DNA of 64,000 bases, taken from the NCBI GenBank assembly GCA_024244705.1, contig JAAEOK010000045.1, forward strand, positions 1-64,000. Reading direction: 5' to 3'. The DNA is from Alphaproteobacteria bacterium (GTDB taxonomy: Bacteria > Pseudomonadota > Alphaproteobacteria > JAAEOK01). A program made the translations under genes and the position numbers. Within the stretch, counting starts at the first letter, position 1. Each line of letters starts with the position of its first letter. Below are positions 15,683-35,850 of this stretch, piece after piece. Below the pieces are notes generated by a model. It was not told the origin of the DNA. It saw only the letters and a program-made list of their open reading frames with translations, and did no database searches.

Positions 15683-16612
15683 CTATTCGGCCGCGGCCGG
15701 GATCTCACCCACATTCGCAATCAGATCGTCGATGAACGCATTGACGATCGAGTGGCGGGCACGGTTGCGGCGCGCGATCAATTCGATTTCGGCAAAGAAT
15801 ATCAGGGTATCCGGCCTGACCGCGCGCATTGCGCCGGATTTCACCCAGCGCTCCGCGTAGTGAGCGGGTAGGAATCCGAGGAATTGTCCGGATAGGACGA
15901 GAAGTGCGATGGCCTCGATATTCGAGGCCTGAGCGGTTGCATTGATCAATTCGCCGAACGGGTGGATGGAATCGGGAATGTAAGTGCGTTTAACGTGTTC
16001 GTATTGCCGCAACTGGTTCAGGTCGGAAAGCGTCTCAGCCGCTTCGTAGACCGGATGCTGCCGGCCGCAGTAAAGGTGAAGGCGTTCGCGGAAAAGCGTG
16101 AAGTATTCGATTCCGGTGGCCCGATTCGTGTATGTGCCCAGTCCGAGCTGAAGGCGCCCATCGACGATCGCGCGCTCGATGTCGTGCGGCGTTCCGACAT
16201 GGATATTTATGCTTACGGCACTTTGCCGTCTCTTGAATCGGGCGATGGCGCTGCTGAGTGGAAAACGGATGTTGGTAATCACGTTATCGATGGTGCCAAT
16301 ATGAAGCTCACCGACCAACCGTCCCCTTAGCGCCTCGACCTCGGAAGTAAAGGTCTCGAGTGAGCGGAACACGCGCTGTGTGGCTTCGTAGACGTGTCGG
16401 CCGGTCTCCGTCAGCCGAAATCCGCTGCGGCCGCGGTCGCAAAGCCGCACACCCAATTTGGCCTCGAGGTCCGACATATGCGAGCTCACGGTAGACTGTC
16501 CGATACCAAGTTCGACTTGAGCAGAAGAAAAGCCGCCACAATCGACGATGGTCGCGAAAACACGCAGGAGACGAAGGTCGACCTGATCAAGCTTGGGGAT
16601 CGGTATGGCCAT
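15683..16612 (-). CDS. LysR-family transcriptional regulator
   Basis: A 309-residue LysR-type regulator: N-terminal winged helix (about 10-70, with FSSAQVELGIGQSTVSSHMSDLE) and a substrate-binding co-inducer domain (about 98-300). It is divergent from the creatininase-like gene at 16779, the usual arrangement for a LysR activator of that operon. A 6-bp-arm inverted repeat at 16648-16665 lies in the shared promoter region and may be its site, giving autoregulation. The inducer is unknown. Confidence 0.9.
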   Translation of the reverse strand: MAIPIPKLDQVDLRLLRVFATIVDCGGFSSAQVELGIGQSTVSSHMSDLEAKLGVRLCDRGRSGFRLTETGRHVYEATQRVFRSLETFTSEVEALRGRLVGELHIGTIDNVITNIRFPLSSAIARFKRRQSAVSINIHVGTPHDIERAIVDGRLQLGLGTYTNRATGIEYFTLFRERLHLYCGRQHPVYEAAETLSDLNQLRQYEHVKRTYIPDSIHPFGELINATAQASNIEAIALLVLSGQFLGFLPAHYAERWVKSGAMRAVRPDTLIFFAEIELIARRNRARHSIVNAFIDDLIANVGEIPAAAE

Positions 16613-16778: not shown

Positions 16779-17603
16779 ATGATGCACGAAACCGTTCTCA
16801 TGGCCGAGATATCCTGGGTCGAGTATGAACGCCGTCTGATTGTGGAGGACGCGATCGTATTGGTCCCGGTCGGCGCCGTTGAACAACACGGCCCGCATAT
16901 GCCTTTGGGAACCGATGCCATCCTGTCGGGCGAAATGGCGCGCCGCGCGGCAGAGCGCGTAGGTGGCATCGTCGCGCCGACCCTCAGCTATGGTTACAAG
17001 TCGCAGCCGCGTACCGGTGGCGGTGATCATTTCCCGGGCTCAACAGGGCTCGATGGTGACAACCTCTCTCATCTGGTGACCGATGTCGTCGCCGAGCTCG
17101 GTCGCACCGGCGCCAAGAAAATTGCACTTATAGACGGGCACTATGAAAATCAATTCTTCCTGACCGAAGGTTGTGAACAGGCCATACGCAGGCTCGAAGC
17201 CAAGGGCATCGACGATGTCAAGGTCCTTAAGATGCGCTATCCGGAAACCGTGAAGCAGGAGACCCTCGATTATCTTGAGCAGTTCTATCCTGATGGGTAT
17301 CCCGGTCTCGACCTCGAGCACGGAGGGATACTCGAGACTTCGATGATGCTCTATTTGTTTCCGCATCTCGTCGACATGAACAAGGTACCACAGGATCCAC
17401 CGGCCTCTTTTCCGCCGTTCGACCTGTATCCCCACGAAGGGCGCGAGTGGGTACCGGAGTCCGGTGTGTTGACCCCGGCGACCAACTCCTCTGCCGAGAT
17501 CGGCCGAATGCTGGTCGAAGAGTTCGTCGAGCTGGTGGCGGGAGCGTTGAGGTCGGCGTTCCGCTCAACCGATTCCTCGATGGTGGAAAGGCGAGTGTCG
17601 TGA
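16779..17603 (+). CDS. Creatininase-family amidohydrolase
   Basis: A 274-residue protein matching Pseudomonas creatininase closely through the active site: metal ligands Glu35, His37 and Asp46 in VEQHGPHMPLGTD, His121 and Glu123 in DGHYEN, and the block YGYKSQPRTGGGDHFPG. However, the two tryptophans that contact creatinine in the Pseudomonas enzyme (Trp154, Trp174) align with Pro155 and Leu177 here. It is therefore a creatininase-type metal amidase whose substrate may be another small amide or lactam. ATG ATG at 16779/16782 follows GGTGAG. It is divergent from LysR and followed by an isochorismatase-family amidase and an ABC importer. Confidence 0.88.
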   Translation: MMHETVLMAEISWVEYERRLIVEDAIVLVPVGAVEQHGPHMPLGTDAILSGEMARRAAERVGGIVAPTLSYGYKSQPRTGGGDHFPGSTGLDGDNLSHLVTDVVAELGRTGAKKIALIDGHYENQFFLTEGCEQAIRRLEAKGIDDVKVLKMRYPETVKQETLDYLEQFYPDGYPGLDLEHGGILETSMMLYLFPHLVDMNKVPQDPPASFPPFDLYPHEGREWVPESGVLTPATNSSAEIGRMLVEEFVELVAGALRSAFRSTDSSMVERRVS

Positions 17604-17644: not shown

Positions 17645-18355
17645 TTGAGTTCGTCCGTCCCCGCCGATCCCTACGACTTTCCGTTTGACGGTGATCTCGG
17701 CGCCGAGAACACGGCGGTCATGGTCATCGATATGCAAAAGGATTTCTGCGATGAAGGGGGTTACTTCCATGCCATGGGCTATGACGTATCGGCGATGCGG
17801 GCATTGATCGAACCGATTGGCAAGGTCTTAGCGGCGGCGCGGACACAGGGCTTTCCCGTTATGCACACGCGTCAGGGAAAGCGACCGGACCTATCCGACG
17901 TCCCCGAGGTGGCACGATGGCGGAGCCGCAACGGCGGTGCCGAGATTGGTTCTCCCAGCCCCCTGGGCCGATTCATGATTCGAGGCGAGGCGGGATTCGA
18001 AATTGTCGATGAGTTGAGCCCGGTACCGGGCGAACCGGTCATCGACAAGGCTGGCGCCAGTGCATTCTTCGCCACCGATCTCGATCTCTTACTGCGCAGC
18101 CAGGGCATCCGGAACATCGTCTTCACCGGCATAACGACCGATGTCTGCGTTCACAGCACGATGCGGGCGGCGGCGGATCGCGGTTACGATGGATTGTTGC
18201 TGGAGGATTGCTGCGCCGCGACTGTCGCCAGCAATCACACGGCGGCCCTTAGCATGATCAAACAGGAAGGCGGCTATTTCGGTAGCGTCTCAAACGCGGC
18301 CGATTTCATTGGCGCGATATCGCTGGGTGATGAGGCCACGCGATTGGCAGGGTAG
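17645..18355 (+). CDS. Isochorismatase-family amidohydrolase (biuret hydrolase / RutB-like)
   Basis: A 236-residue cysteine hydrolase. The catalytic triad is visible as Asp in VIDMQKDFC, Lys in VIDKAGASAF and Cys in GITTDVCVHSTMR. The N-terminus (DPYDFPFDGDL, then DNTA-like ENTAVMVIDM) and the RQGKRPDLSD and SPLGRFMIRGE blocks recall biuret and ureidoacrylate amidohydrolases, which split a terminal urea or carbamoyl amide. Start is TTG at 17645 with GGAGGT at 17633. Together with the creatininase-like enzyme it could carry a ring-opening then decarbamoylation sequence, for example a carbamoyl-amino acid to the amino acid, CO2 and ammonia (inference). Confidence 0.86.
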   Translation: MSSSVPADPYDFPFDGDLGAENTAVMVIDMQKDFCDEGGYFHAMGYDVSAMRALIEPIGKVLAAARTQGFPVMHTRQGKRPDLSDVPEVARWRSRNGGAEIGSPSPLGRFMIRGEAGFEIVDELSPVPGEPVIDKAGASAFFATDLDLLLRSQGIRNIVFTGITTDVCVHSTMRAAADRGYDGLLLEDCCAATVASNHTAALSMIKQEGGYFGSVSNAADFIGAISLGDEATRLAG

Positions 18356-19439: not shown

Positions 19440-20972
19440 ATGCCGACCGTGGCCAGTGAGCATCACCTCGTCGTCGACGGCGTAACCAAGACGTTTGGCG
19501 AATTGCGCGCCAATGACGACGTCAATCTTCATGTCCGAAGAGGATCGATCCACGCCATATTGGGTGAAAATGGGGCCGGCAAGACGACCCTCATGAACAT
19601 CCTGTACGGGCTCTATCAACCTGATGAAGGGCGCATTCTGGTCGATGACCGCGAGGTCAAGATCGAGAGCCCGAAGGACGCGTTGGCCCAGGGCATCGGC
19701 ATGGTGCATCAACATTTCATGCTGGTCCGGCCGTTGACCGTTACCGAAAACGTCATTCTTGGCATGAAACAGGGGAGGGTCGGCCTTGATCTAAAGGCCC
19801 ATGCCACCCGGCTATCCGAACTCAGTGATTCATTTGGCTTCGAGATAGATCCCAATGAAGCCATCTGGAAGCTGCCGATGGGCATGCAGCAGCGGGTCGA
19901 AATCTTGAAGCTGCTCTATCACAACGTCGATATTCTTATATTCGATGAACCGACCAGCGTGCTGACGCCGAGCGAGACTGGCCCTTTTTTCGATGTCCTG
20001 AGGCGCCTGACCGAGGCCGACAAGACGATTCTGTTTATCACCCATAAGCTCGAGGAGGTGATATCGATCTCCGACCGGGTCACGGTGATGCGAAACGGCC
20101 AAGTGACGGCGGAGGTCGAGACAACCGATACGGATGCTCGGGAGTTAGCGCGGCTGATGATCGGTCGCGATGTCGTATTCGACATTCCCCACCGGGACAT
20201 GGAAGCCGGACGGGAGATGCTGCGGGTGGAGAATGTTCGTGCCACCGGCGACAGAGGCATCGGCGCTCTCGACGACATTTCCCTGTCCGTGAAAAGTGGC
20301 GAAATTCTCGGAGTGGCCGGTGTCGACGGCAATGGTCAAGCGGAACTGGCCGAGGTCATCGCCGGTTTGAGGAAGCCCGAATCAGGTCATATTCGGGTTG
20401 GCGGTGAACTGATCGACGATGTTTCGGTGGCCGAACGCAAGCGTCGATGGAAAATCGGTTATGTTCCAGAGGACCGTCACGAAGTAGGTCTTGTCCTCGA
20501 CCAATCTGTCGCCATGAATCTGGTCCTTAGGACCTTTCGTTGGCTGCCATTTGCAAACCACCATGTTCTCAATCCCGGAGCAATCCGCGCCAACGCCGAA
20601 AAGTTGGTCGACCAGTACAATGTACGCCTGCAAAGCATCGAACAAGAGACCCGGTATCTCTCGGGCGGCAATCAACAAAAGCTCATCCTCGCCCGAGAGA
20701 TAGAAGACGGGCCGCAAGTCCTGGTCGTTGCGCAGCCAACCAAGGGACTGGACGTTGGCGCAATCGAATTCGTCCAGAAAACGCTTCTCGAGCAGCGGGC
20801 GAGGGGCGTCGCGATTCTTTATATTTCAACCGAGCTCGAGCATGTGCTCGAGGTAAGCGGCCGTATAGCGGTCATCTTTCGCGGCCGGATAACCGGCTTG
20901 CTCGATACCGCCGAGGCAACCCCGGAGCGCCTCGGCCTGCTAATGGCAGGCGCCGTCGGAGAAGCTGCCTGA
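19440..20972 (+). CDS. ABC transporter ATP-binding protein, two NBDs (nucleoside/simple-sugar type)
   Basis: A 510-residue double ATPase of the NupA/YufO/RbsA class. NBD1 has Walker A GENGAGKT at 42-49, the Q-loop in MVHQHFML and Walker B ILIFDEPTSVL; its signature is the variant LPMGMQQR. NBD2 has a degenerate Walker A (GVDGNGQAE) but a good signature LSGGNQQK, the usual asymmetry in this class. It couples ATP hydrolysis to uptake through the two permeases that follow with overlapping start and stop codons. Confidence 0.92.
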   Translation: MPTVASEHHLVVDGVTKTFGELRANDDVNLHVRRGSIHAILGENGAGKTTLMNILYGLYQPDEGRILVDDREVKIESPKDALAQGIGMVHQHFMLVRPLTVTENVILGMKQGRVGLDLKAHATRLSELSDSFGFEIDPNEAIWKLPMGMQQRVEILKLLYHNVDILIFDEPTSVLTPSETGPFFDVLRRLTEADKTILFITHKLEEVISISDRVTVMRNGQVTAEVETTDTDARELARLMIGRDVVFDIPHRDMEAGREMLRVENVRATGDRGIGALDDISLSVKSGEILGVAGVDGNGQAELAEVIAGLRKPESGHIRVGGELIDDVSVAERKRRWKIGYVPEDRHEVGLVLDQSVAMNLVLRTFRWLPFANHHVLNPGAIRANAEKLVDQYNVRLQSIEQETRYLSGGNQQKLILAREIEDGPQVLVVAQPTKGLDVGAIEFVQKTLLEQRARGVAILYISTELEHVLEVSGRIAVIFRGRITGLLDTAEATPERLGLLMAGAVGEAA

Positions 20973-22072
20973 TGCTGGGCGCAATACGCTTCCTTTATAT
21001 GTTCAAAAGCGTCTGGGCGGTTGTGGCTGCCTTGATCGTTGGCTCCTTCCTCATCAAGCTTGCCGGATCCGATCCAATCGAGGCCTATGTCGCTCTCTTC
21101 AAGGGCGCATTTACGGAATACTATGGCGTCGGTAGCACCCTGGTGAAGATGTCGCCGTTGGTGCTTGCGGGTCTGGCGGTCACCGTGCCGCTGCGGGCTG
21201 GGCAGTTCAACATTGGCGTCGAAGGGCAGATTTACATGGGCGCGCTGTTCGCGACGCTCGCGGCCCTTTATCTTCCCGCTATGCCGGGCTGGCTCCACAT
21301 CCTGGCCGCGTCCTTGTCGGGGATGATTGGCGGGGCGTTTTGGGCCCTGATTCCCGCGATCCTCAAGGCGTACTACCGAGTCAACGAGATTATCGTCACC
21401 CTGCTGATGAACTATGTGGCGATCAACATAGTCAGTTACGCGGTAAGCGGCCCGATGATGGCGCCCGACGCGCCCTATCCCTACTCCCACGAGATACCCG
21501 AAGCCTTGTTCCTGCCTCATGTGCTGCCGCGGACCGACGCCCACCTCGGCGTCGTTATTGGGATCGTTCTCGCCATCGTCATATTCGCCGTATTTCGATA
21601 CGGCACCTTCGGCTTCACCTTGTCCACCGTGGGCAAGAACGCACGGGCCGCCGAGTACGCCGGCGTCTCGGTACGCCGCACCATTGTCCTCGCCTTCGTG
21701 GTCGCCGGTGCCATGGGAGGATTGGCGGGGACGTATGAGGTGTTGGGACTGAAATATCGGCTGTTTCACCATTTCAGCCCGGGATACGGGTACGACGGTA
21801 TCGTCATAACATTCCTCGCCGGCGCCAATCCCCTGTTCGTCGTCATCGCCGCGACCTTCCTGGCCGGCCTGAGAAGCGGTGCCGGTATCATGCAGCGCGC
21901 CGTCGGCGTCGATGCGACGGTAATCGAGGCAATCCAGGGCTTGGTCGTTATCTTTGTTGCGATGGGCCTCGCGTTTCGCTTCGACCGCACATATTGGGCC
22001 AAATTCCTCCATACGCGCAGGGCCGCCGACCGCGGTCTGGCGCCAGGGTCGGGGGGCGACAAGCCACCATGA
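20972..22072 (+). CDS. ABC transporter permease (BMP-type importer, first subunit)
   Basis: A 366-residue integral membrane protein of the nucleoside/branched-chain-type permease family. About ten hydrophobic segments follow a short N-terminus, with AGQFNIGVEGQIYMGA and the coupling-helix region TVGKNARAAEYAGV. The ATG at 20972 shares a base with the stop TGA of the ATPase gene, so I reject the long upstream extension of the same frame. It pairs with the permease at 22069. Confidence 0.9.
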   Translation: MLGAIRFLYMFKSVWAVVAALIVGSFLIKLAGSDPIEAYVALFKGAFTEYYGVGSTLVKMSPLVLAGLAVTVPLRAGQFNIGVEGQIYMGALFATLAALYLPAMPGWLHILAASLSGMIGGAFWALIPAILKAYYRVNEIIVTLLMNYVAINIVSYAVSGPMMAPDAPYPYSHEIPEALFLPHVLPRTDAHLGVVIGIVLAIVIFAVFRYGTFGFTLSTVGKNARAAEYAGVSVRRTIVLAFVVAGAMGGLAGTYEVLGLKYRLFHHFSPGYGYDGIVITFLAGANPLFVVIAATFLAGLRSGAGIMQRAVGVDATVIEAIQGLVVIFVAMGLAFRFDRTYWAKFLHTRRAADRGLAPGSGGDKPP

Positions 22073-23013
22073 TCGAAATTTTTCTCGACCCACAGTTACT
22101 GACGGACTTTCTTCGGACCAGCCTGCGTCTCGCGGTACCGATCACCTTTGCCGCCGTCGGTGGGGTGCTGTCGGAACGGAGCGGGGTCTACAACATTGGC
22201 CTCGAAGGGATGATGCTGGCCGGCGCCTTCGGTGCGGCGGTCGGCGCGTTCTTTTTTGGGACCCCGTTCGCGGGTGTCGTGACCGGCGCGATGTGCGGCA
22301 TGCTTGCGGCCCTAATACTCGCCGTCCTTGGTGTTTCCTTGGGCGTCAACCAAATCGTGACCGGGATCGCAATCAACCTCCTGGTGCTCGGATTGACGTC
22401 GTTCCTGTCACGCGTGGTTTTCGGCGCCCAGGCCAACACGCTCGATCTCGAAGGCTTCCGGCCATTGGCGATCCCGGTCCTGGTTTCGATCCCAGTCATA
22501 GGTCCGGTTTTCTTCGGCCAGGATGCGCTGGTCTATGCCATGTATGGGCTTGTGCCGATGATGTATTACATCATGTTCAAGACCCCCTGGGGGCTGAACA
22601 TTCGAGCCGTCGGCGAGAACCCGCGGGCAGCCGATACAGCGGGTGTTCCGGTTAACCTCGTACGCTATGCCTGCGTTCTGGGAAGCGGCGTTTTTGCTGG
22701 GCTGGGCGGCTGTTTCCTCGTTCTATCCCAGGTCTTTCTGTTTTCGGAGAACATGAGCGCGGGCAAAGGCTTCATTGCCCTTGCCGCGGTTATTCTCGGG
22801 CGCTGGAATCCGATCGGTGCCCTATTGGCCTGTTTGCTCTTTGGATTTTTTGATTCGCTGCAACTTCGATTGCAATTCCTCAATCCCGACGTCCCGCACG
22901 AGATTTTCGTGGCGCTGCCCTACATGGTTTCGATATTGGCGCTGGTCGGGCTCGTCGGTCGGCCAACACCGCCCGCCGCTGCGGGTATCCCCTACCGACG
23001 GGAGGCGAAATGA
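22069..23013 (+). CDS. ABC transporter permease (BMP-type importer, second subunit)
   Basis: A 314-residue membrane protein homologous to the first permease: GVYNIGLEGMMLAGA, then the coupling-helix block AVGENPRAADTAGV, and a C-terminus with several transmembrane helices. The ATG at 22069 overlaps the upstream TGA in an ATGA arrangement. It completes a BMP, ATPase, permease, permease importer. Its own stop overlaps the start of the amidinotransferase gene, tying the imported compound to that enzyme. Confidence 0.9.
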   Translation: MIEIFLDPQLLTDFLRTSLRLAVPITFAAVGGVLSERSGVYNIGLEGMMLAGAFGAAVGAFFFGTPFAGVVTGAMCGMLAALILAVLGVSLGVNQIVTGIAINLLVLGLTSFLSRVVFGAQANTLDLEGFRPLAIPVLVSIPVIGPVFFGQDALVYAMYGLVPMMYYIMFKTPWGLNIRAVGENPRAADTAGVPVNLVRYACVLGSGVFAGLGGCFLVLSQVFLFSENMSAGKGFIALAAVILGRWNPIGALLACLLFGFFDSLQLRLQFLNPDVPHEIFVALPYMVSILALVGLVGRPTPPAAAGIPYRREAK

Positions 23014-25100: not shown

Positions 25101-25712
25101 TCAGTCAAGAACTTCAAAATGGGCATCCTTCGGCGGCGCGCCGCCTTCGCCATGGATCGGCAGAATGTCCTGAGGACAGGTCGAGAAGGCAACGTAGCAG
25201 TCCATATCCGCGCGGAATGTGATGTATTGGCCCGGTTCGCATACGGTAGGTCGGAAATCGAGGCTGTTGCGATCATCGAGGACGGGAATGTTCATGAACA
25301 CGTTGAATGAGGCGGCGATCGGGAAGGGCGGCGTGACGCCGAGTTCAAGCAGCCCTTCGAACATGTTGTCCTGGCAATTTCGATGATAGCCCTCGACCCC
25401 CAGTACCTGATAGCGATAGCGATCGCAGGCGGCCATGAAGGTGTCGTGAATGCCCGGCGTCGTGTCTTCGAGGATAGTAAGGATCGGCCGTCGTCGATTG
25501 GTAACCAACGAATCGCCGACTATGGGATTGAGACGCACATTCCAGACCCGGGTCGACTCCATCGACATGTACTCTTGGAGCTCGTAGGCGTTAAGCGCCC
25601 AGGTATCGACCACTTGGGTGCCGTGCGTGTTTATGAGTTTGACGCGCTGGCCAGCAGTCAGACGGGCGGCCTTGCCGTGACCGGCGGGGATCAAGACACG
25701 GTTTTCGGACAT
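25101..25712 (-). CDS. DUF1989 family protein (urea-carboxylase-associated / carboxyguanidine-deiminase-like)
   Basis: A 203-residue protein of the DUF1989 family. The core INTHGTQVVDTWAL, TNRRRPILTILEDT, CRYQ-like RYRYQVLGVEGYHRNCQDN and FNVFMNIPV are typical, with conserved His and Cys that probably bind a metal. Members of the family form the CgdAB carboxyguanidine deiminase in guanidine assimilation; others are uncharacterised. Only one subunit is present here and no guanidine carboxylase is in the window, so I do not assign that reaction. ATG at 25712 follows a GGAGG-type site. It is convergent with the amidinotransferase operon and divergent from the ammonia-lyase gene. Confidence 0.82.
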   Translation of the reverse strand: MSENRVLIPAGHGKAARLTAGQRVKLINTHGTQVVDTWALNAYELQEYMSMESTRVWNVRLNPIVGDSLVTNRRRPILTILEDTTPGIHDTFMAACDRYRYQVLGVEGYHRNCQDNMFEGLLELGVTPPFPIAASFNVFMNIPVLDDRNSLDFRPTVCEPGQYITFRADMDCYVAFSTCPQDILPIHGEGGAPPKDAHFEVLD

Positions 25713-25849: not shown

Positions 25850-27382
25850 TTGACAGAAATACTGACAATCGAACCGCGGGGTCTCGATTTTGAAACCATG
25901 CGACGGGTTTCGGCCGGCGGGTTGGCCTTGGACCTGTCCCCCGAGGCGCGATCGGAAATCGACGCCGGTTACGACGTCGTGCGTCGTGTGGTCGGCGAGG
26001 GAAGGCGAACATATGGCGTCAACACGGGGTTCGGTGCGCTGGCCGATCGGGTCATACCGGAAGAGGACCTGGAGGAGCTGCAAAGACGCCTGGTGCTGTC
26101 CAACGCATGCGGCACCGGGGGTCCGCTTCCGGATCAGATCGTTCGCAAGATTCTCGTCCTAAAGATCGCCGCTCTGGCGAGCGGCCGGTCCGGCGTTCGG
26201 CGAGACCTCGTCACCGCGCTGATCGCCCTTTACAACGCCGACATCCTGCCCTGCGTGCCGGCCCAGGGCTCGGTTGGCGCCTCCGGCGACTTGGCGCCGT
26301 TGGCCCATATCGCCGCGGTCCTCATCGGCGCCGGCGAGGTTCGCGCTGGAGATCGGATTCTCTCGGCAGCCGAAGGTCTCGAAATGGCGGGGATCAGCAA
26401 TTTTCGATTCGCGCCGAAGGAAGGCTTGGCGATGGTCAACGGTACGCAAGTCTCGACTGCGCTCGCGCTTGCCGGGCTGTTCGCGTCCGAAGCCGTGTTC
26501 GCCGCCGCCGCCGTGTCCGGCATGTTGAGCGTCGAAGCGGCTCTCGGCCAGGATATGGCCTTCGACCCCCGTATTCAGGAGGCCCGCGGCCAGGCCGGAC
26601 AACGGGACATGGCAGCAGCCTACCGTGCCCTGCTCGATGGTAGCGGTTTGCGCGACCGTGCGGCACGCGATGGACGCATCCAGGACCCCTACAGCCTGCG
26701 TTGTCAGCCGCAAGTGATGGGTGCCGCGCTTGATATCTTGCGGAACACATCAACGACATTGGCGCAGGAAATCAACGCACTCACCGACAACCCTCTGGTC
26801 TTCGCCGAGGACGATGCAATTCTGTTCGGCGGTAATTTTCACGCCGAGCCGGTCGGGCTCGCCAGCGATATGATCGCGCTCGCGCTTGCGGAGATGGGGG
26901 CCATTGCGGAGCGCCGGATTGCGCTTCTGACCGACAGCAATATCAGCGGCCTGCCGGCATTCCTTGTGGAAAGCAGTGGACTCGATTCCGGGTTCATGGT
27001 GGCGCAGGTCGTCGCCGCCGCCTTGGTCAGCGAAAACAAGAGCCGGGCGTTTCCGGCGAGCGTCGACAGCATTCCGACAGTGGCGAACTTTGAAGATTTT
27101 GTCAGCATGGCAACCCACGGGGCGCGGCGTCTCGGCGAGATGGCGGACAATGCAGCCGGGGTCGTCGCGATCGAGTTGCTGGCGGCCTGCCAGGGGCTGG
27201 AATTCCGCCGTCCGGACCGCTCCAGCGAGGTCCTCGAACGCGCCGTCGCCGCCGTTCACGAACGCGTTCCCTCCTATGACACCGATCGCTTTTTCGCGCC
27301 CGATGTGGCGGCCATCAAGGACCTGGTCAAAAGCGGCTACTTCCTTGACCTGGTTCCGGAAAATCTACGGTTTGCGATCTGA
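25850..27382 (+). CDS. MIO-dependent aromatic amino acid ammonia-lyase, divergent HutH homologue
   Basis: A 510-residue lyase of the histidine/phenylalanine ammonia-lyase family. The MIO-forming Ala-Ser-Gly is at 144-146 in GSVGASGDLAPLAH. Tyr55 (TYGVNTGFG), QDPYSLRCQPQVMGA, GGNFHAEPV and Glu in NFEDFVSM are in place. The substrate-pocket His83 of histidase (LVLSHAAG) is Asn85 here (LVLSNACG), and NQEDHVSM has become NFEDFVSM, so histidine is unlikely to be bound in the normal way. Start TTG at 25850 with GGAGGG. No hutU, hutI or hutG is present; the neighbours are a DUF1989 protein and a ureohydrolase. A novel amino-acid or betaine substrate is possible. Confidence 0.85.
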   Translation: MTEILTIEPRGLDFETMRRVSAGGLALDLSPEARSEIDAGYDVVRRVVGEGRRTYGVNTGFGALADRVIPEEDLEELQRRLVLSNACGTGGPLPDQIVRKILVLKIAALASGRSGVRRDLVTALIALYNADILPCVPAQGSVGASGDLAPLAHIAAVLIGAGEVRAGDRILSAAEGLEMAGISNFRFAPKEGLAMVNGTQVSTALALAGLFASEAVFAAAAVSGMLSVEAALGQDMAFDPRIQEARGQAGQRDMAAAYRALLDGSGLRDRAARDGRIQDPYSLRCQPQVMGAALDILRNTSTTLAQEINALTDNPLVFAEDDAILFGGNFHAEPVGLASDMIALALAEMGAIAERRIALLTDSNISGLPAFLVESSGLDSGFMVAQVVAAALVSENKSRAFPASVDSIPTVANFEDFVSMATHGARRLGEMADNAAGVVAIELLAACQGLEFRRPDRSSEVLERAVAAVHERVPSYDTDRFFAPDVAAIKDLVKSGYFLDLVPENLRFAI

Positions 27383-28387
27383 TCAGGTAGCCTTCCCGCG
27401 TTCCGCGAGCCATGCCTCGCGGCGCTCGGCCCACCAAGGCTGAGCACAAATACGGCCGAGGAATTCGATGACCGTATGGGCGCCGAGATAGGCGGTCACA
27501 CCGGTGCCGACATCGAGTTGCGGGTTTACTTCGACGAAATCGAACCCAACGATCCGCGTGCGTTCCGCGATCGCGGTCAAGGTGTCTCGCAATTCCGCAT
27601 AGGCCATGCCATTGGGCTCCGCGGATACGCAGCCAGGGACGAGCGAAATATCGAGCACATCGATATCGATACTGACGTAACAATTTTCGCCCTCGGGTAC
27701 CAGCGCGGCCAGACCCTTCGGGCCGATTTCATGAAACTCGTTCATGGTGACGATTCGATTTCCGTCGACAATGGAATCCTCGATCCAATCGCGGCCATGG
27801 CGAAGGCTGCGAATTCCGGCCTGGATCAAATTCTTGACGTGAGGCATCGGTGACAGATGACGGAATGCATGCCCGTTGGTGAAACGCAGGTCATGGATGA
27901 AAGGCGCATAGTCGTTGTGAGCATCGAAGTGCACGATATGCATGGGTTCCGTGAACACCCGCGCCACCGGATAGGTGATTGAGTGGTCACCGCCGAGAAT
28001 GATCGGAAGGGCGCCGCGGTCGAGGACACGGCGAACGAGGCTGCTGATGTTGTCGAAGGTCTGCTTGACGTCGGTGGGCCAGATCTCGGCGTCGCCGACA
28101 TCTGCGATCATGCCATGCGCCATTTCCGGGACCAGGTATTCTTCGCTTGTTTCCGGATCGTAGTAGCCATGGCCCATGGCGAATCTCAGCGAATGTTCGC
28201 GGAGCGCCCGCGGTCCAAAGCGGGACCCGGCCATGAATGGCGAGCCTTCGTCGGTCGGAACGCCGATCACGGCGATGGCGGCGTCCAACTCGTCGACATT
28301 CGTGCAGATCGGGGCGCGCAGGAACGATGGAATTCCGACGAACGGCCACATCAGGCTGGGGTTGGCATCCTTGTCATCAGAAGACAT
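27383..28387 (-). CDS. Ureohydrolase (agmatinase/guanidino-acid hydrolase family), copy 1
   Basis: A 334-residue manganese ureohydrolase. Metal ligands are visible in GGDHSITYPV, HFDAHNDY and SIDIDVLD. The substrate loop reads VPGCVSAEPNGM in place of the APGTGTP-x-GG of standard agmatinases and of the second copy at 57896, so specificity probably differs; a guanidino acid or a smaller guanidine is possible. ATG 28387 has upstream purines. Its stop directly abuts the stop of the convergent ammonia-lyase. It is probably co-transcribed after the amidohydrolase-2 gene (43-nt gap). Confidence 0.87.
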   Translation of the reverse strand: MSSDDKDANPSLMWPFVGIPSFLRAPICTNVDELDAAIAVIGVPTDEGSPFMAGSRFGPRALREHSLRFAMGHGYYDPETSEEYLVPEMAHGMIADVGDAEIWPTDVKQTFDNISSLVRRVLDRGALPIILGGDHSITYPVARVFTEPMHIVHFDAHNDYAPFIHDLRFTNGHAFRHLSPMPHVKNLIQAGIRSLRHGRDWIEDSIVDGNRIVTMNEFHEIGPKGLAALVPEGENCYVSIDIDVLDISLVPGCVSAEPNGMAYAELRDTLTAIAERTRIVGFDFVEVNPQLDVGTGVTAYLGAHTVIEFLGRICAQPWWAERREAWLAERGKAT

Positions 28388-28430
28388 CGCTGGGCTCCGT
28401 TGATTGGTCCGGCCGGATCGGCGCCACAAG

Positions 28431-29384
28431 TCAGGCGTCGAGGCGAAGGATACGAACCGCGTTGGCGCCGATGATGGCCTCTTTTTCTTCGACCGACAGC
28501 AATGGCAATTCCATTACCCGGTCAATCGTGCGGTCGAGATCGTACCAAGGAAAATCCGAACCCATCATGACGCGGTCGCTGCCGACGTTCACTATCAATT
28601 GGGCGAGTTCCTGGTCGTTGGGTCCATTGTCGCTCTCGGTCCATTCGATTATTTCGCAACAATCGAAGTAGGCGTTGGCGTGGATCTCCGCGATTTCACG
28701 TGCCTGCTGCCACGTCGCGCCACCCATGTGCGCCAGTACGATCGGGAGATCCGGAAAGGCGGCGAGGGCGTCGCCAAAGGCGCGCGGTTCCGCGAAACCC
28801 TTGCCATCGAGGTCCGGGCCGGAATGGCCAACCACCGGCAATCCGAGTTCCTGACACAAGGCATAGGTCGGCCACAATCGTTTGTCGCCCATATGGAATT
28901 CCTGGGCCGGGCCATGCAATTTAATACCTCGCGCACCATCGCTTTCGGCCAGATCTCGCAGGTGGTCGGCATTTTCCTGGTCGCTGAGCAAATTCACATC
29001 GGCGCAAATGAAAGTAACAATTTCCGGATGATCGCGGCCGATTTCGCAGGCCCAACGGTTGAAGGCAACGAAGTCCTGGCGTAGGCGTTCCTCGATTTCG
29101 CCAAGGGCCTTCTCCCGCTGGCTCGGTCCCAGGTCCGAGGGCAAGGCGTCGATGAATTCCTGCCGCACGACCTCGGCGATAAACAGATTGACCAGGACCG
29201 ACCGCGAAATGTTCGCGGTTTTCATGGCCCCGAGTAGATCTTGTACGGTCCCGGCCAAACCGCTAATCGCGACATCGGCCTGCCGACCGTATTCCCAGAT
29301 TTCATAACCTTCCTTGGCGGCAATTCCGGACTGCGCATCCTGATAGATATGAATGTGAGAATCGATTCTGACCGGACTGCTCAT
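28431..29384 (-). CDS. Amidohydrolase-2 family TIM-barrel metal hydrolase/decarboxylase
   Basis: A 317-residue protein of the amidohydrolase_2 family (ACMSD, LigW and lactonase relatives). HIH occurs in IDSHIHIY at about 8-14, later His in VVGHSGPD and LAHMGG, and Asp in MGSDFPW near the C-terminus, all expected metal or catalytic positions. It could hydrolyse a lactone or decarboxylate an acid. It lies upstream of the ureohydrolase on the same strand. Substrate not identifiable. Confidence 0.8.
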   Translation of the reverse strand: MSSPVRIDSHIHIYQDAQSGIAAKEGYEIWEYGRQADVAISGLAGTVQDLLGAMKTANISRSVLVNLFIAEVVRQEFIDALPSDLGPSQREKALGEIEERLRQDFVAFNRWACEIGRDHPEIVTFICADVNLLSDQENADHLRDLAESDGARGIKLHGPAQEFHMGDKRLWPTYALCQELGLPVVGHSGPDLDGKGFAEPRAFGDALAAFPDLPIVLAHMGGATWQQAREIAEIHANAYFDCCEIIEWTESDNGPNDQELAQLIVNVGSDRVMMGSDFPWYDLDRTIDRVMELPLLSVEEKEAIIGANAVRILRLDA

Positions 29385-31849: not shown

Positions 31850-31978
31850 GTGCGAAATCGGATGCCGATTCACGGCGGGAGCGTTGGAATAAAGTGAATA
31901 CCGGTGCCAACTTCGTATAAGATGGCAAAGGCATGCAGAGTTGGGCCCGCGTCACGTTACCGAAGAAAGAGTTCGAAT

Positions 31979-32449
31979 ATGGAAAAGGCACTTCTCATCG
32001 ACCCGGAGAAATGTACGAGCTGCCTGCAATGCGAGCTTGCGTGCTCGTTCGAGCACGAGGGCGTGTTCAATCCGGCCAAGTCGCGGATCAAGATTTTCGA
32101 ATTCGAACACGGCGCCCGCGCCATTCCCTATACCTGCACCCAATGCGCGGAAGCCTGGTGCTTGCACGCCTGTCCGGTCGAGGCGCTGACCCGTAACCCG
32201 GCGACCAATGCGGTCGAGGTCAACGAAGACATTTGCGTCGGTTGCAAGGTGTGCACAATCGCCTGCCCATTCGGGACGGTGAATTACAATCAGGACAGCG
32301 GCAAGGTCATCAAATGCGATCTCTGCGGCGGCGACCCTGAATGCGCCAAGGCATGCCCGACCGATGCGATCACCTATGTCGATGCCAGTTGGACCGGCTA
32401 TGAGCGAATGAAGGATTGGGCGGTTCGCGGTCATGGTCGGCCGGCCTAG
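31979..32449 (+). CDS. aorA: Polyferredoxin subunit of tungsten aldehyde oxidoreductase
   Basis: A 156-residue iron-sulphur protein with sixteen cysteines in four clusters (CTSCLQCELAC, CTQCAEAWCLHACP, CVGCKVCTIACP, CDLCGGDPECAKACP), enough for four [4Fe-4S] centres, as in HycB/AorA-type subunits. It carries electrons between AorB and the FAD subunit. ATG at 31979 after GAAAGAG; I reject the 25-codon upstream extension. Gene order Fe-S, W-enzyme, FAD subunit, MoaD-like protein matches the aor operon described in Aromatoleum. Confidence 0.88.
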   Translation: MEKALLIDPEKCTSCLQCELACSFEHEGVFNPAKSRIKIFEFEHGARAIPYTCTQCAEAWCLHACPVEALTRNPATNAVEVNEDICVGCKVCTIACPFGTVNYNQDSGKVIKCDLCGGDPECAKACPTDAITYVDASWTGYERMKDWAVRGHGRPA

Positions 32450-32483
32450 TTCGGCGCGAGCCTGAGATAAAGGATAGCAAGCG

Positions 32484-34322
32484 ATGAGTTGGCAAAGGAA
32501 AGTCCTTCGGGTCGATTTGAGCAAAATGACCCATGAAGTCGAGCCCCTGAACATGGACTGGGCCTTGGACTATATAGGCGAGCGCGGGTTGGCCACGAAG
32601 TACCTGTGGGAAAACATGGATCCGGCCACCGACGCGATGGATCCGGGCAATGTCCTGATCTTTGCGACCGGCCCATTGACCGGAACCATGGCGTCGACCA
32701 GCGGGCGCTATGCGGTTGTCACCAAGGGGCCCCTGACCGGCGCCATTGCGTGCTCCAACTCGGGCGGTAAATTCGGCGCCGAGTTGAAATTTGCCGGCTA
32801 CGACCTGCTGATCATCGAGGGTCGCGCGCCGGGCCCGGTTTACCTTCACATCGTTGACGACAAGGTCGAGATTCTACCCGCCGATCAGATTTGGGGCACC
32901 ACGGTATGGCATACCGAGGAATGGCTGAAAGCCCACCATCATGAGCCTCAGTTGAAGGTTGCGTCGATTGGCGTGGCCGGCGAATGCGGCGTACGGTACG
33001 CCTGCGTCGTCAACGACCTTCACCGCGCCGCCGGGCGTTCCGGCGTCGGTGCCGTCATGGGCTCGAAGAACCTCAAGGCGATCGCCGTGCGCGGCTCGGT
33101 CGGTGTCAGCGTCAATGATCCCAAGGCGTTCATGACCACTGTCCAGCGCGTGAACAAGATGCTCGCCGAGAGTCACGGCCGGATGGAACTGACCGAACTG
33201 GGCACCAACGCCATGATGGATGTCATGAACGAGTTCGGCGGGCTACCGACTCGCAACAATCAACAGGTGCAGTTCGAGGGGACGAGCAAGATCAACGCAA
33301 CGGCCATGTTGGATACCCGAGACGATGGCCACAGAAACCTCGTTGCCAACAAGGCCTGTTTTGGCTGCACGATCGCCTGCGGACGTATCGCTCATATCCA
33401 TCAAGGACATTTCACGGTCGTCAACCGCATGCAGTATTGGCATGCTTCGGGTGGGCTCGAATATGAGACCGCCTTCGCTTTCGGACCGCTGATCGGTGTC
33501 GACGACATCGACGCTTTGACCTTTGCCGGCTACCTCATGAACGAACATGGCATGGATCCGATTTCGTTCGGCGGCACGCTGGCCTCGGCCATGGAGCTGT
33601 TTGAGATGGGCGTCATCACCGTGGACGACACCGATGGGATTCCGCTCAATTTCGGCAACCCGGAAGCCCTTACCTTGATGGCGGAGAAGACCGGCACCTA
33701 CGAGGGTTTCGGTCAGGTCCTGGGCTTGGGGTCCCGTTTGATGTGCGAAAAGTACGGCCACCCCGAGTTGTCGATGACCGTCAAGGGTCAGGAGTTTGCC
33801 GGCTATGACGGCCGTGCCCTGCAGGGCATGGGGCTCGGTTACGCGACCAGCAACCGCGGGGCCTGCCACCTCAAACATGCGGTCTTTTCGGAGGACATGG
33901 ACGATCAGACCGGAAAGGGAAAGGCAAAGCCGTGCAAGGACTCCCAGGATCGGATCGCAGTCATCGATTCGACCGGGCTTTGTCTCTTTTCCGGTGAAGG
34001 TGGCTGGGATACCGAAGAATATCGCGAACTCCTCGATACGGCTTGCGAGGGGGATTGGACGACCGAACGGGTATTGGCGTGCGGCGAGCGGATCTGGAAC
34101 TTGGAGCGGATGTTCAATCTCAAGGCCGGTCTCTCGAAGGCCGACGATACGCTTCCCCCGCGGATCTTGGAAACGCCGGCGCCATCCGGGACCGCCAAGG
34201 GGAAGGTCAGTCAGTTGGACATCATGCTGCCCGAATATTACGAGTACCGCGGCTGGAATAGTGATGGAGTGCCGACCAAGGACACTCTCGATCGGCTTGG
34301 TATTCAAGAGACCAAGGGGTAG
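32484..34322 (+). CDS. aorB: Aldehyde:ferredoxin oxidoreductase, tungsten catalytic subunit
   Basis: A 612-residue AOR-family enzyme. [4Fe-4S] ligands Cys292, Cys295 and Cys299 (ACFGCTIAC) and the late Cys in DSTGLCLF, a bis-pterin-binding N-domain (TGTMASTSGRYAVVTKGPLTG), and the KGQEFAGYDGRALQGMGLGYATSNRGACH block are visible. It oxidises aldehydes to carboxylic acids, or reverses this at low potential, with a tungsten bis-tungstopterin. In this setting it could oxidise betaine- or amine-derived aldehydes. It follows aorA by 34 nt. Confidence 0.92.
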   Translation: MSWQRKVLRVDLSKMTHEVEPLNMDWALDYIGERGLATKYLWENMDPATDAMDPGNVLIFATGPLTGTMASTSGRYAVVTKGPLTGAIACSNSGGKFGAELKFAGYDLLIIEGRAPGPVYLHIVDDKVEILPADQIWGTTVWHTEEWLKAHHHEPQLKVASIGVAGECGVRYACVVNDLHRAAGRSGVGAVMGSKNLKAIAVRGSVGVSVNDPKAFMTTVQRVNKMLAESHGRMELTELGTNAMMDVMNEFGGLPTRNNQQVQFEGTSKINATAMLDTRDDGHRNLVANKACFGCTIACGRIAHIHQGHFTVVNRMQYWHASGGLEYETAFAFGPLIGVDDIDALTFAGYLMNEHGMDPISFGGTLASAMELFEMGVITVDDTDGIPLNFGNPEALTLMAEKTGTYEGFGQVLGLGSRLMCEKYGHPELSMTVKGQEFAGYDGRALQGMGLGYATSNRGACHLKHAVFSEDMDDQTGKGKAKPCKDSQDRIAVIDSTGLCLFSGEGGWDTEEYRELLDTACEGDWTTERVLACGERIWNLERMFNLKAGLSKADDTLPPRILETPAPSGTAKGKVSQLDIMLPEYYEYRGWNSDGVPTKDTLDRLGIQETKG

Positions 34323-34328
34323 CGAGCG

Positions 34329-35582
34329 GTGGAATACGTCGTCATCGGAACCGGACCTTCGGGGGTGATCGCCGCGGAAACACTGCGCCGCACCGACCCT
34401 TCCGGCCATGTGAGAATCCTCGGTGACGAAGTCGAACCACCTTATTCTCGGATGGCGTTACCCTATTTTCTGGCGGAAAACATCACCGAGAGCGGCACCT
34501 ATTTGCGCCACGGAGAGGGTCACTACGACGCACTCGGCATCGCGGTCGAACAAGGGCGAGTAGCGAGAATTGCACCCGCCGAAAAGTCGATATCGTTGGA
34601 AGGTGGCGGGGAGGTCTCTTACGACCGGCTGCTGATCGCCACGGGCTCCCATGCGATTCGCCCTCCCATCCCGGGAATCGACCTGCCCGGGATCGAGAAT
34701 TGCTGGACCCTCGACGATGGCCGTCGAATCGCCGCATCGACCTCGAAAGGGTCTCGCGTGTTGCTGTTGGGCGCCGGATTTATCGGATGCATCGTCTTGG
34801 AGGCGCTGGTGGCGCGTGGGGTCGAACTCACGTTGGTCGAGATGGAAGATCGCGTTGTTCCGCGCATGATGGACCACACCGGCGGCGATATGATCAAAAC
34901 ATGGTGCGAGTCCAAGGGCGTATCCGTTCGCACATCGACGCGCGTCACGGGCATCGAGAAATCGGGAGACGCCTTCGACGTGAGTTTTGACGGTGGTGAC
35001 GGTGTTACGGTCGATGTTGTCGTCTGTGCAACGGGGGTGAAGCCGAATATCGCATTCCTCGAAGGAAGTGGGATCTCGACCGACGACGGTGTTTTGGTCG
35101 ACCACCACCTGCAGACCAATGTCGATCATATCTACGCCGCCGGTGATGTCGCCCAAGGGCCGGAATTCTTCACCGGCAAGCAGGAAATTCATGCAATCCA
35201 GCCGACCGCTTCCGAACACGGTCGGATCGCCGCACTCAATATGGCCGGCCGCGAGACCTACTATCGTGGCAGCTTGTCGATGAACGTCCTGAACACACTG
35301 GGATTGATATCCAGTTCGTTCGGCTTGTGGATGGGGATCGAGGGCGGGAGCGAGGCGCGGGTCGCCGATGCCGAGCGCTCCCGTTATCTCAAGCTTGTGT
35401 TTCGCGACGATGTCATTGTCGGCGCGCTCGCCCTCGGCTTGACCCAGCATGTCGGCGTCATCCGCGGTTTGATGCAGGCGAAGACTGGGCTCGGGCACTG
35501 GAAGGAGAGGCTGATCAAGGACCCCTATCGGGTCATGGAAGCCTATCTTGCTCGCACCCAGGGCTCATCAAGCGGATATTGA
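34329..35582 (+). CDS. aorC: FAD/NAD-dependent oxidoreductase subunit of AOR complex
   Basis: A 417-residue pyridine-nucleotide disulphide oxidoreductase-type protein. FAD motif GTGPSG at 7-12, NAD motif LLGAGFIG at about 145-153, ATGVKPN, and a closing FAD motif YAAGDVAQG. It begins 6 nt after aorB. In the Aromatoleum complex this subunit passes electrons to NAD. No redox-active CxxC is seen, consistent with an NADH:acceptor-type member. Confidence 0.88.
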   Translation: MEYVVIGTGPSGVIAAETLRRTDPSGHVRILGDEVEPPYSRMALPYFLAENITESGTYLRHGEGHYDALGIAVEQGRVARIAPAEKSISLEGGGEVSYDRLLIATGSHAIRPPIPGIDLPGIENCWTLDDGRRIAASTSKGSRVLLLGAGFIGCIVLEALVARGVELTLVEMEDRVVPRMMDHTGGDMIKTWCESKGVSVRTSTRVTGIEKSGDAFDVSFDGGDGVTVDVVVCATGVKPNIAFLEGSGISTDDGVLVDHHLQTNVDHIYAAGDVAQGPEFFTGKQEIHAIQPTASEHGRIAALNMAGRETYYRGSLSMNVLNTLGLISSSFGLWMGIEGGSEARVADAERSRYLKLVFRDDVIVGALALGLTQHVGVIRGLMQAKTGLGHWKERLIKDPYRVMEAYLARTQGSSSGY

Positions 35583-35598
35583 GGGCGGTTCGGCCGCA

Positions 35599-35850
35599 AT
35601 GCGAATCACCGTTCGGACCGGCGGAATACTCCACCGTTATCTCCCGGCAGGCAGTACAAACAACACCGCAGTGCTCGAGATCGAGGAGGGAGACGGGCCG
35701 CTTGACGTCCTTCGCAGGCTGGGATTTCCGGAGGGGCAACGGTTTCTGGTCACGGTGAATGGAATCTCGATTCCGACCACGGAACGCGAAGCGACCCGCT
35801 TGGCCGAATCAGACGATCTCGGGATTTTTCCCCCGCTTAAGGGCGGATAA
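35599..35850 (+). CDS. aorD: MoaD/ThiS-like small protein with C-terminal Gly-Gly
   Basis: An 83-residue beta-grasp protein ending exactly in KGG, the C-terminal di-glycine needed for thiocarboxylation in MoaD-type sulphur carriers. The FPPLKGG ending is typical of MoaD. It is the fourth gene of the AOR operon and probably supplies dithiolene sulphur for the tungsten pterin. ATG at 35599, 16 nt after aorC; a longer in-frame start at 35548 inside aorC is less likely. Confidence 0.83.
   Translation: MRITVRTGGILHRYLPAGSTNNTAVLEIEEGDGPLDVLRRLGFPEGQRFLVTVNGISIPTTEREATRLAESDDLGIFPPLKGG

Follow-up and report, generated by a model that had tools for sequence, protein, structure and literature searches.

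Only very few amino acids are known as substrates of natural MIO lyases. The closest described relative of the lyase considered here is the histidase HutH (TIGR01225, EC 4.3.1.3; P. putida 1GKM/1B8F), with which it shares the fold, the Ala-Ser-Gly MIO triad and the active-site Tyr, Asn, Gln, Tyr, Arg, Phe and Glu, and in whose phylogeny it is nested at about 51-60% identity. Unlike HutH, however, the variant has His83 exchanged to Asn, Gln413 to Phe/Leu/His, His416 to Phe, the Ser before the GGNFH loop to Phe/Tyr and an Asn to Asp379, and it belongs to no hut operon but sits with genes of a BMP importer, a DUF1989 protein and ureohydrolases. Ergothionase (6S7J, Treponema denticola) also has the MIO lyase fold and shows that a MIO lyase for a histidine derivative exists in nature, but the variant is only 25-26% identical to it and has no thiourocanate hydratase alongside. 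TAL (R. sphaeroides 2O6Y) and the MIO aminomutases belong to the same superfamily, in which the position of Asn85 is known for substrate selectivity, whereas the variant is 30-36% identical to the solved ones, falls below their model cut-offs and keeps the histidase-type Glu415. As for the neighbourhood, homologues of the ureohydrolases and DUF1989 proteins of guanidine scavenging (such as guanidinopropionase and the hydrolases of guanidine and metformin; for DUF1989, carboxyguanidine deiminase) adjoin the lyase with intact metal motifs, although no MIO lyase was found in the guanidine-pathway papers that were consulted.

A histidase-like lyase with an exchanged pocket

The window, i.e. the whole 64,000-nucleotide stretch of alphaproteobacterial DNA that was analysed, carries the lyase gene with the following features:

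25850..27382, + strand: MIO ammonia-lyase derived from HutH, its specificity pocket altered (Asn85, Met195, Phe326, Asp379, Phe414, Phe417)
26102..26104, + strand: codon of Asn85, which stands in place of the histidase His83
27086..27109, + strand: N-F-E-D-F-V-S-M in place of N-Q-E-D-H-V-S-M, with Glu415 kept

The ORF encodes 510 aa without an internal stop and begins with TTG, 4 nt downstream of GGAGGG. P. putida HutH was its best solved relative (E 8e-155), and the AlphaFold model (pLDDT 91.6) had P. putida HAL as the nearest solved fold (TM 0.96, 51-52% identity). The sequence-only reading had described His83 as replaced by Asn85 and QEDH by FEDF, with MIO, Tyr and Glu retained, and the alignment bore this out: residues 414-417 are FEDF, while Tyr55, Ala-Ser-Gly 144-146, Asn197, Gln278, Tyr281, Arg284, Phe330 and Glu415 are unchanged. 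The MIO triad within a HAL/PAL fold places the protein in the MIO superfamily, and its score with the hutH equivalog TIGR01225 is above the cut-off (613.6 versus 539.15). The TAL/PAL models FlxA and phe_am_lyase scored below theirs (294 versus 700 and 247 versus 519), as did the aminomutase models TIGR03832 and TIGR04475 (298 versus 501 and 334 versus 800).

These scores bear on the suggestion, also made in the sequence-only reading, that the protein acts as an aminomutase, i.e. a 2,3-aminomutase giving a beta-amino acid. The fold is common to the MIO aminomutases, yet the model scores lie far below cut-off, the variant clusters within HutH, and its neighbourhood, in which hydrolase and importer genes but no natural-product synthase gene were noted, looks catabolic, so this activity is very improbable. 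Aminomutase, PAL, TAL and ergothionase were set aside by model scores, identity or partners.

A subfamily of four genes beside canonical histidases

Among the 80 best public genome matches, the exchanges of the window lyase recurred at a single locus, L003, and all the others keep the histidase residues at 85, 414 and 417. A search around the L003 genome brought two further members (L123 and L124), and its repetition over the order of L003 added none. The family found thus comprises four genes in four genomes, i.e. the window, L003 (G745), L123 (G750) and L124 (G786), three of which come from mutually related genomes. A motif-pattern scan of 385 class and 399 phylum genomes gave no members beyond the window genome, plus one QEDF protein with His83. 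None was recognised on plasmids, where the best matches listed had <60% full-length identity and were annotated as hutH or unannotated, nor on viral contigs.

All four variants have Asn85, Met195, Phe/Tyr326, Gly336, Asp379, Val384 and Phe417 in common, while residue 414 is Phe, Leu or His (FEDF in the window, LEDF or HEDF in the others). Asn85, Phe/Tyr326 and Phe417 occurred in 0 of 93 related HutH, all of which have His83; this set had been picked for SH (His) and QEDH, so that positions 85, 414 and 417 are fairly judged by the 80 public matches and position 326 is the difference independent of the picking. In the tree, the window and L003 lyases formed a 100/100 clade within the HutH radiation, and the four variants stayed one clade (85/100) with the diagnostic columns masked. 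The phylogenetic comparison proposed with the sequence-only reading therefore nests the variant among HutH, but with the substitutions confined to its own clade, and no grouping with equally substituted ordinary HutH was seen. Pairwise dN/dS within the subfamily was 0.20-0.32 by Nei-Gojobori counts, the larger distances being rough, which shows the gene to be maintained under purifying selection.

Two observations concern other HAL-family proteins. The HutH of L093 (G156), which adjoins hutI, has QEDF for QEDH with a normal His83; QEDF was therefore rejected as a sole signature, and Asn85 and residue 414 are more telling changes than Phe417, since QEDF also occurs in this ordinary hutH. In three homologues (L109, L110 and L111, from G037, G040 and G033), the alignment lacks the Ala-Ser-Gly triad (GSVGY---) and keeps QED, and these appear from their sequences to be MIO-less HAL relatives.

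The sequence-only reading had also stated that no hut genes accompany the lyase. This holds locally, hutU being absent from the window and neither hutU nor hutI lying beside the variant at any of the loci, but not for the genome, where another contig carries a full hut operon (hutF-hutH / hutI-hutC-hutU) with a canonical hutH (SHA, QEDH). A canonical HutH is likewise encoded in the genomes of L003 and L123, and G786, a small assembly, gave no second match over the hutH cut-off. A single hutU was found in each of the window genome and G745; the sole HutU match in the window genome fits hutU and scores below the thiourocanate hydratase cut-off.

It is also conceivable that the variant still works as a histidase, perhaps weakly and as a specialised paralogue, and that its substitutions are drift which the enzyme tolerates. 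Its passing of the hutH cut-off (613 versus 539) and its place inside the HutH tree were counted against re-specialisation, QEDF is present in an ordinary hut operon, and Asn is able to hydrogen-bond as His does. Against drift stand the complete hut operon that the genome carries on another contig, the fixation of the same exchanges in all four genomes with purifying selection acting on the gene, the lack of hut partners, and the GkHAL mutant H82L, altered at the position cognate to Asn85, which was inactive on histidine and identified His82 as essential (PMC11432326), although that mutant has His changed to Leu whereas the variant has Asn. Traces of activity persist in PpHAL mutated at comparable sites (PMC11432326), and the variant may have residual or changed histidase activity. 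Overall, a histidase with drift is distinctly unlikely, and an ordinary drifted hutH was dropped as the leading reading by the full hut operon elsewhere together with the conserved exchanges.

Import and hydrolase genes around the variant lyases

The partners named in the sequence-only reading, i.e. a ureohydrolase, a DUF1989 protein and an amidohydrolase, were confirmed by their families, and the surroundings of the window lyase contain:

15683..16612, - strand: LysR regulator; 43% identity with the LysR encoded in the L123 cluster
16785..17603, + strand: creatininase (TIGR04448 above cut-off), placed in the system by position only
17645..18355, + strand: hydrolase of the isochorismatase family, close to biuret amidohydrolase and RutB but under the cut-off of each; a C-terminal remnant of a relative lies in L003
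18406..19362, + strand: BMP-family ABC substrate-binding protein, distantly related to the guanine-binding AtzT and 44% identical to that of L123
19440..20972, + strand: BMP-type ABC transporter ATPase, 69-71% identical to those of the L123 and L124 operons
20972..22072, + strand: BMP-type ABC permease, start approximate, 66-67% identical to L123/L124
22060..23013, + strand: BMP-type ABC permease, start approximate, 71-74% identical to L123/L124
23010..24068, + strand: amidinotransferase-family protein (HsvA/AGAT/StrB1 relatives), placed in the system by position only
25101..25712, - strand: DUF1989 protein (PF09347) with intact Cys, HxxC and CPQD metal motifs, adjoining the variant lyase in 4/4 genomes
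27383..28429, - strand: arginase-family ureohydrolase (PF00491) with GGDH, DAHxD, DxD and a guanidinium-type Glu motif, 71% identical to one L003 ureohydrolase
28431..29384, - strand: Amidohydro_2 (PF04909) metal-dependent hydrolase; a related N-terminal remnant lies beside the L003 ureohydrolase

The lyase gene lies between the DUF1989 and ureohydrolase genes on the strand opposite to both, 2.8 kb from the BMP importer, and no promoter-like site was found between it and the DUF1989 gene in the window. The metal site of the DUF1989 protein is intact in its Cys, His and Asp motifs, and this family includes carboxyguanidine deiminase. For the ureohydrolase there was no close solved match, the best being 1WOG, a structure named agmatinase (167 bits); judged by the family pattern, its metal motifs and guanidinium-type Glu motif are intact. 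Aligned with AtzT, a guanine-binding BMP-family protein, the window binding protein appears to retain the aromatic position and the Trp, but the ligand is not readable from this pocket since conservation of the polar ligand contacts is not clear and another BMP protein has the Trp as well. The amidinotransferase-family gene comes after the importer genes of an apparently catabolic cluster, and its closest plasmid relative (61% identical) is from Agrobacterium pusense. Further along (31970-35850), a row of genes encodes a ferredoxin, an aldehyde ferredoxin oxidoreductase-family protein, an NAD(P)-linked oxidoreductase and a small ThiS/MoaD-like ORF; oxidoreductase genes of the window would join the system by position alone.

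In L123, one strand carries the BMP binding protein, ATPase, two permeases, lyase, DUF1989 and an ATZ/TRZ-type amidohydrolase, with 67-71% identity between the transporter genes and window 19440-23013. Divergently, a LysR and a ureohydrolase gene are followed by genes for a nitrilase-family protein, for a urea-type ABC transporter and for a protein of the carbamoylase/allantoate amidohydrolase type. L124 has the same BMP importer, lyase and DUF1989 on one strand up to the contig end, and L003 has an amidohydrolase, a ureohydrolase, the lyase, DUF1989 and two more ureohydrolases, of which one has 71% identity with that of the window. Thus, the lyase and DUF1989 are adjacent in 4/4 genomes despite rearranged surroundings, the BMP importer accompanies them in 3/4 (window, L123 and L124), and ureohydrolase genes do so in all three contigs that are long enough (window, L003 and L123). 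The partner set varies, with ureohydrolases of different clades and amidohydrolases of two families. A literature search for a lyase-ureohydrolase cluster returned nothing relevant. A hybrid ORF in L003 (8864-9199, - strand) joins an Amidohydro_2 N-terminus like that of 28431-29384 to an isochorismatase C-terminus like that of 17645-18355, and is apparently a deletion scar.

Outside the subfamily, an ortholog of the window ureohydrolase accompanies DUF1989 and polar amino-acid importers without a lyase on Chelatococcus and Salipiger plasmids, and a more distant homologue adjoins DUF1989 on a Mesorhizobium plasmid. The Chelatococcus and Salipiger contexts, together with the ureohydrolases and DUF1989 next to the lyase, speak for ammonia elimination from a non-aromatic guanidino amino acid (arginine-like, 2-amino-3-guanidinopropionate or canavanine-like), whose unsaturated guanidino product the ureohydrolase would take over. 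BMP importers, though, are better known for nucleosides and nucleobases, and a non-aromatic substrate is not known to us for any MIO enzyme. Moreover, in the proposed MIO mechanism it is the aromatic ring that acidifies the beta proton (PMC11432326), and a substrate of this kind is quite improbable.

A candidate pocket function and catabolic route

Position 85 has known counterparts in other MIO enzymes. Besides the essential His82 of GkHAL, the cognate TAL residue, His89, forms a hydrogen bond with the hydroxyl at the distal end of the ring and sets specificity, its exchange in His89Phe switching the substrate (PMC8773403, PMC9002059). Asn85, together with bulkier hydrophobic residues at 417, 326 and partly 414 and with Glu415 kept, would most simply mark a pocket re-specialised for another side chain that is still polar. 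Nitrogen of the amidine or guanidine type in that side chain is suggested by the adjoining ureohydrolases and DUF1989, whose motifs are intact, DUF1989 being the family to which carboxyguanidine deiminase belongs.

We therefore consider it probable, if by no great measure, that the variant is a duplicate of hutH in which the MIO elimination chemistry has been kept and the side-chain pocket exchanged, and which serves a nitrogen-scavenging gene set of importer, lyase and DUF1989/ureohydrolase/amidohydrolase enzymes. The BMP-type ABC transporter would bring in a nitrogen-rich, probably heteroaromatic, amino acid; the lyase would attach the substrate amine to MIO, abstract the beta proton and release ammonia and an acrylate-type product; and the DUF1989, ureohydrolase and amidohydrolase enzymes would then remove nitrogen from the guanidine- or amidine-like side chain. 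The lyase action, the loss of histidine as a substrate and the direction of the pathway are all three what we infer. The ammonia elimination from a non-standard amino acid suggested by the sequence-only reading is retained in this conditional form, given the conserved subfamily, the canonical hut copy and the importer/DUF1989/ureohydrolase neighbourhood; nothing specifically favours enduracididine or ergothioneine as the substrate. The side chain could be guessed to be a heteroaromatic ring with a cyclic guanidine or urea (2-amino- or 2-oxo-imidazole, or aminopyrimidine), a guess more apt to fail than to hold, and Asn85 could hydrogen-bond such a ring from its distal side.

A lyase for methylhistidine (N-tau or N-pi) or a related modified histidine would account for the pocket in another way, since the hydrophobic residues (Phe417, Phe/Tyr326 and Met195) and the loss of His83 would leave space for a methyl group, and the products would pass to the ordinary Hut enzymes. 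Glu415 is kept, as expected for an imidazole-type ring, and HAL chemistry on N-tau-methylhistidine is known according to the passage of PMC11432326 that cites Beliaeva et al. 2022. However, no dedicated urocanase or imidazolonepropionase lies alongside, hutU is single in the window genome and G745, and the ureohydrolase, DUF1989 and BMP importer partners are left unexplained, which makes such a substrate unlikely.

For the re-specialised duplicate of hutH, the fuller proposal of a natural MIO lyase for a substrate other than His, Phe, Tyr and ergothioneine, in a so far undescribed route that would break down a heteroaromatic amino acid with a guanidine or amidine group via BMP importer, lyase, DUF1989 and ureohydrolase, is tentative and lies near the balance, slightly on the doubtful side. 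If true, it would give a bacterial nitrogen source of a new kind, place a DUF1989 protein in a pathway and offer a scaffold for lyases that act on unusual amino acids. Should the reading hold, passing the hutH equivalog cut-off does not guard a protein against misannotation, and Asn85 with Phe417 and Phe/Tyr326 would be a signature for finding such proteins.

Modules without the lyase recur on plasmids of Chelatococcus, Salipiger, Mesorhizobium and Neorhizobium (L101, L102, L103 and L106), with LysR, agmatinase-like, polar amino-acid ABC importer and arginase-family genes; DUF1989 is present in three of these four modules, none being listed for Neorhizobium. On a Palleronia plasmid (L105), one amino-acid ABC importer is surrounded by three DUF1989 genes.
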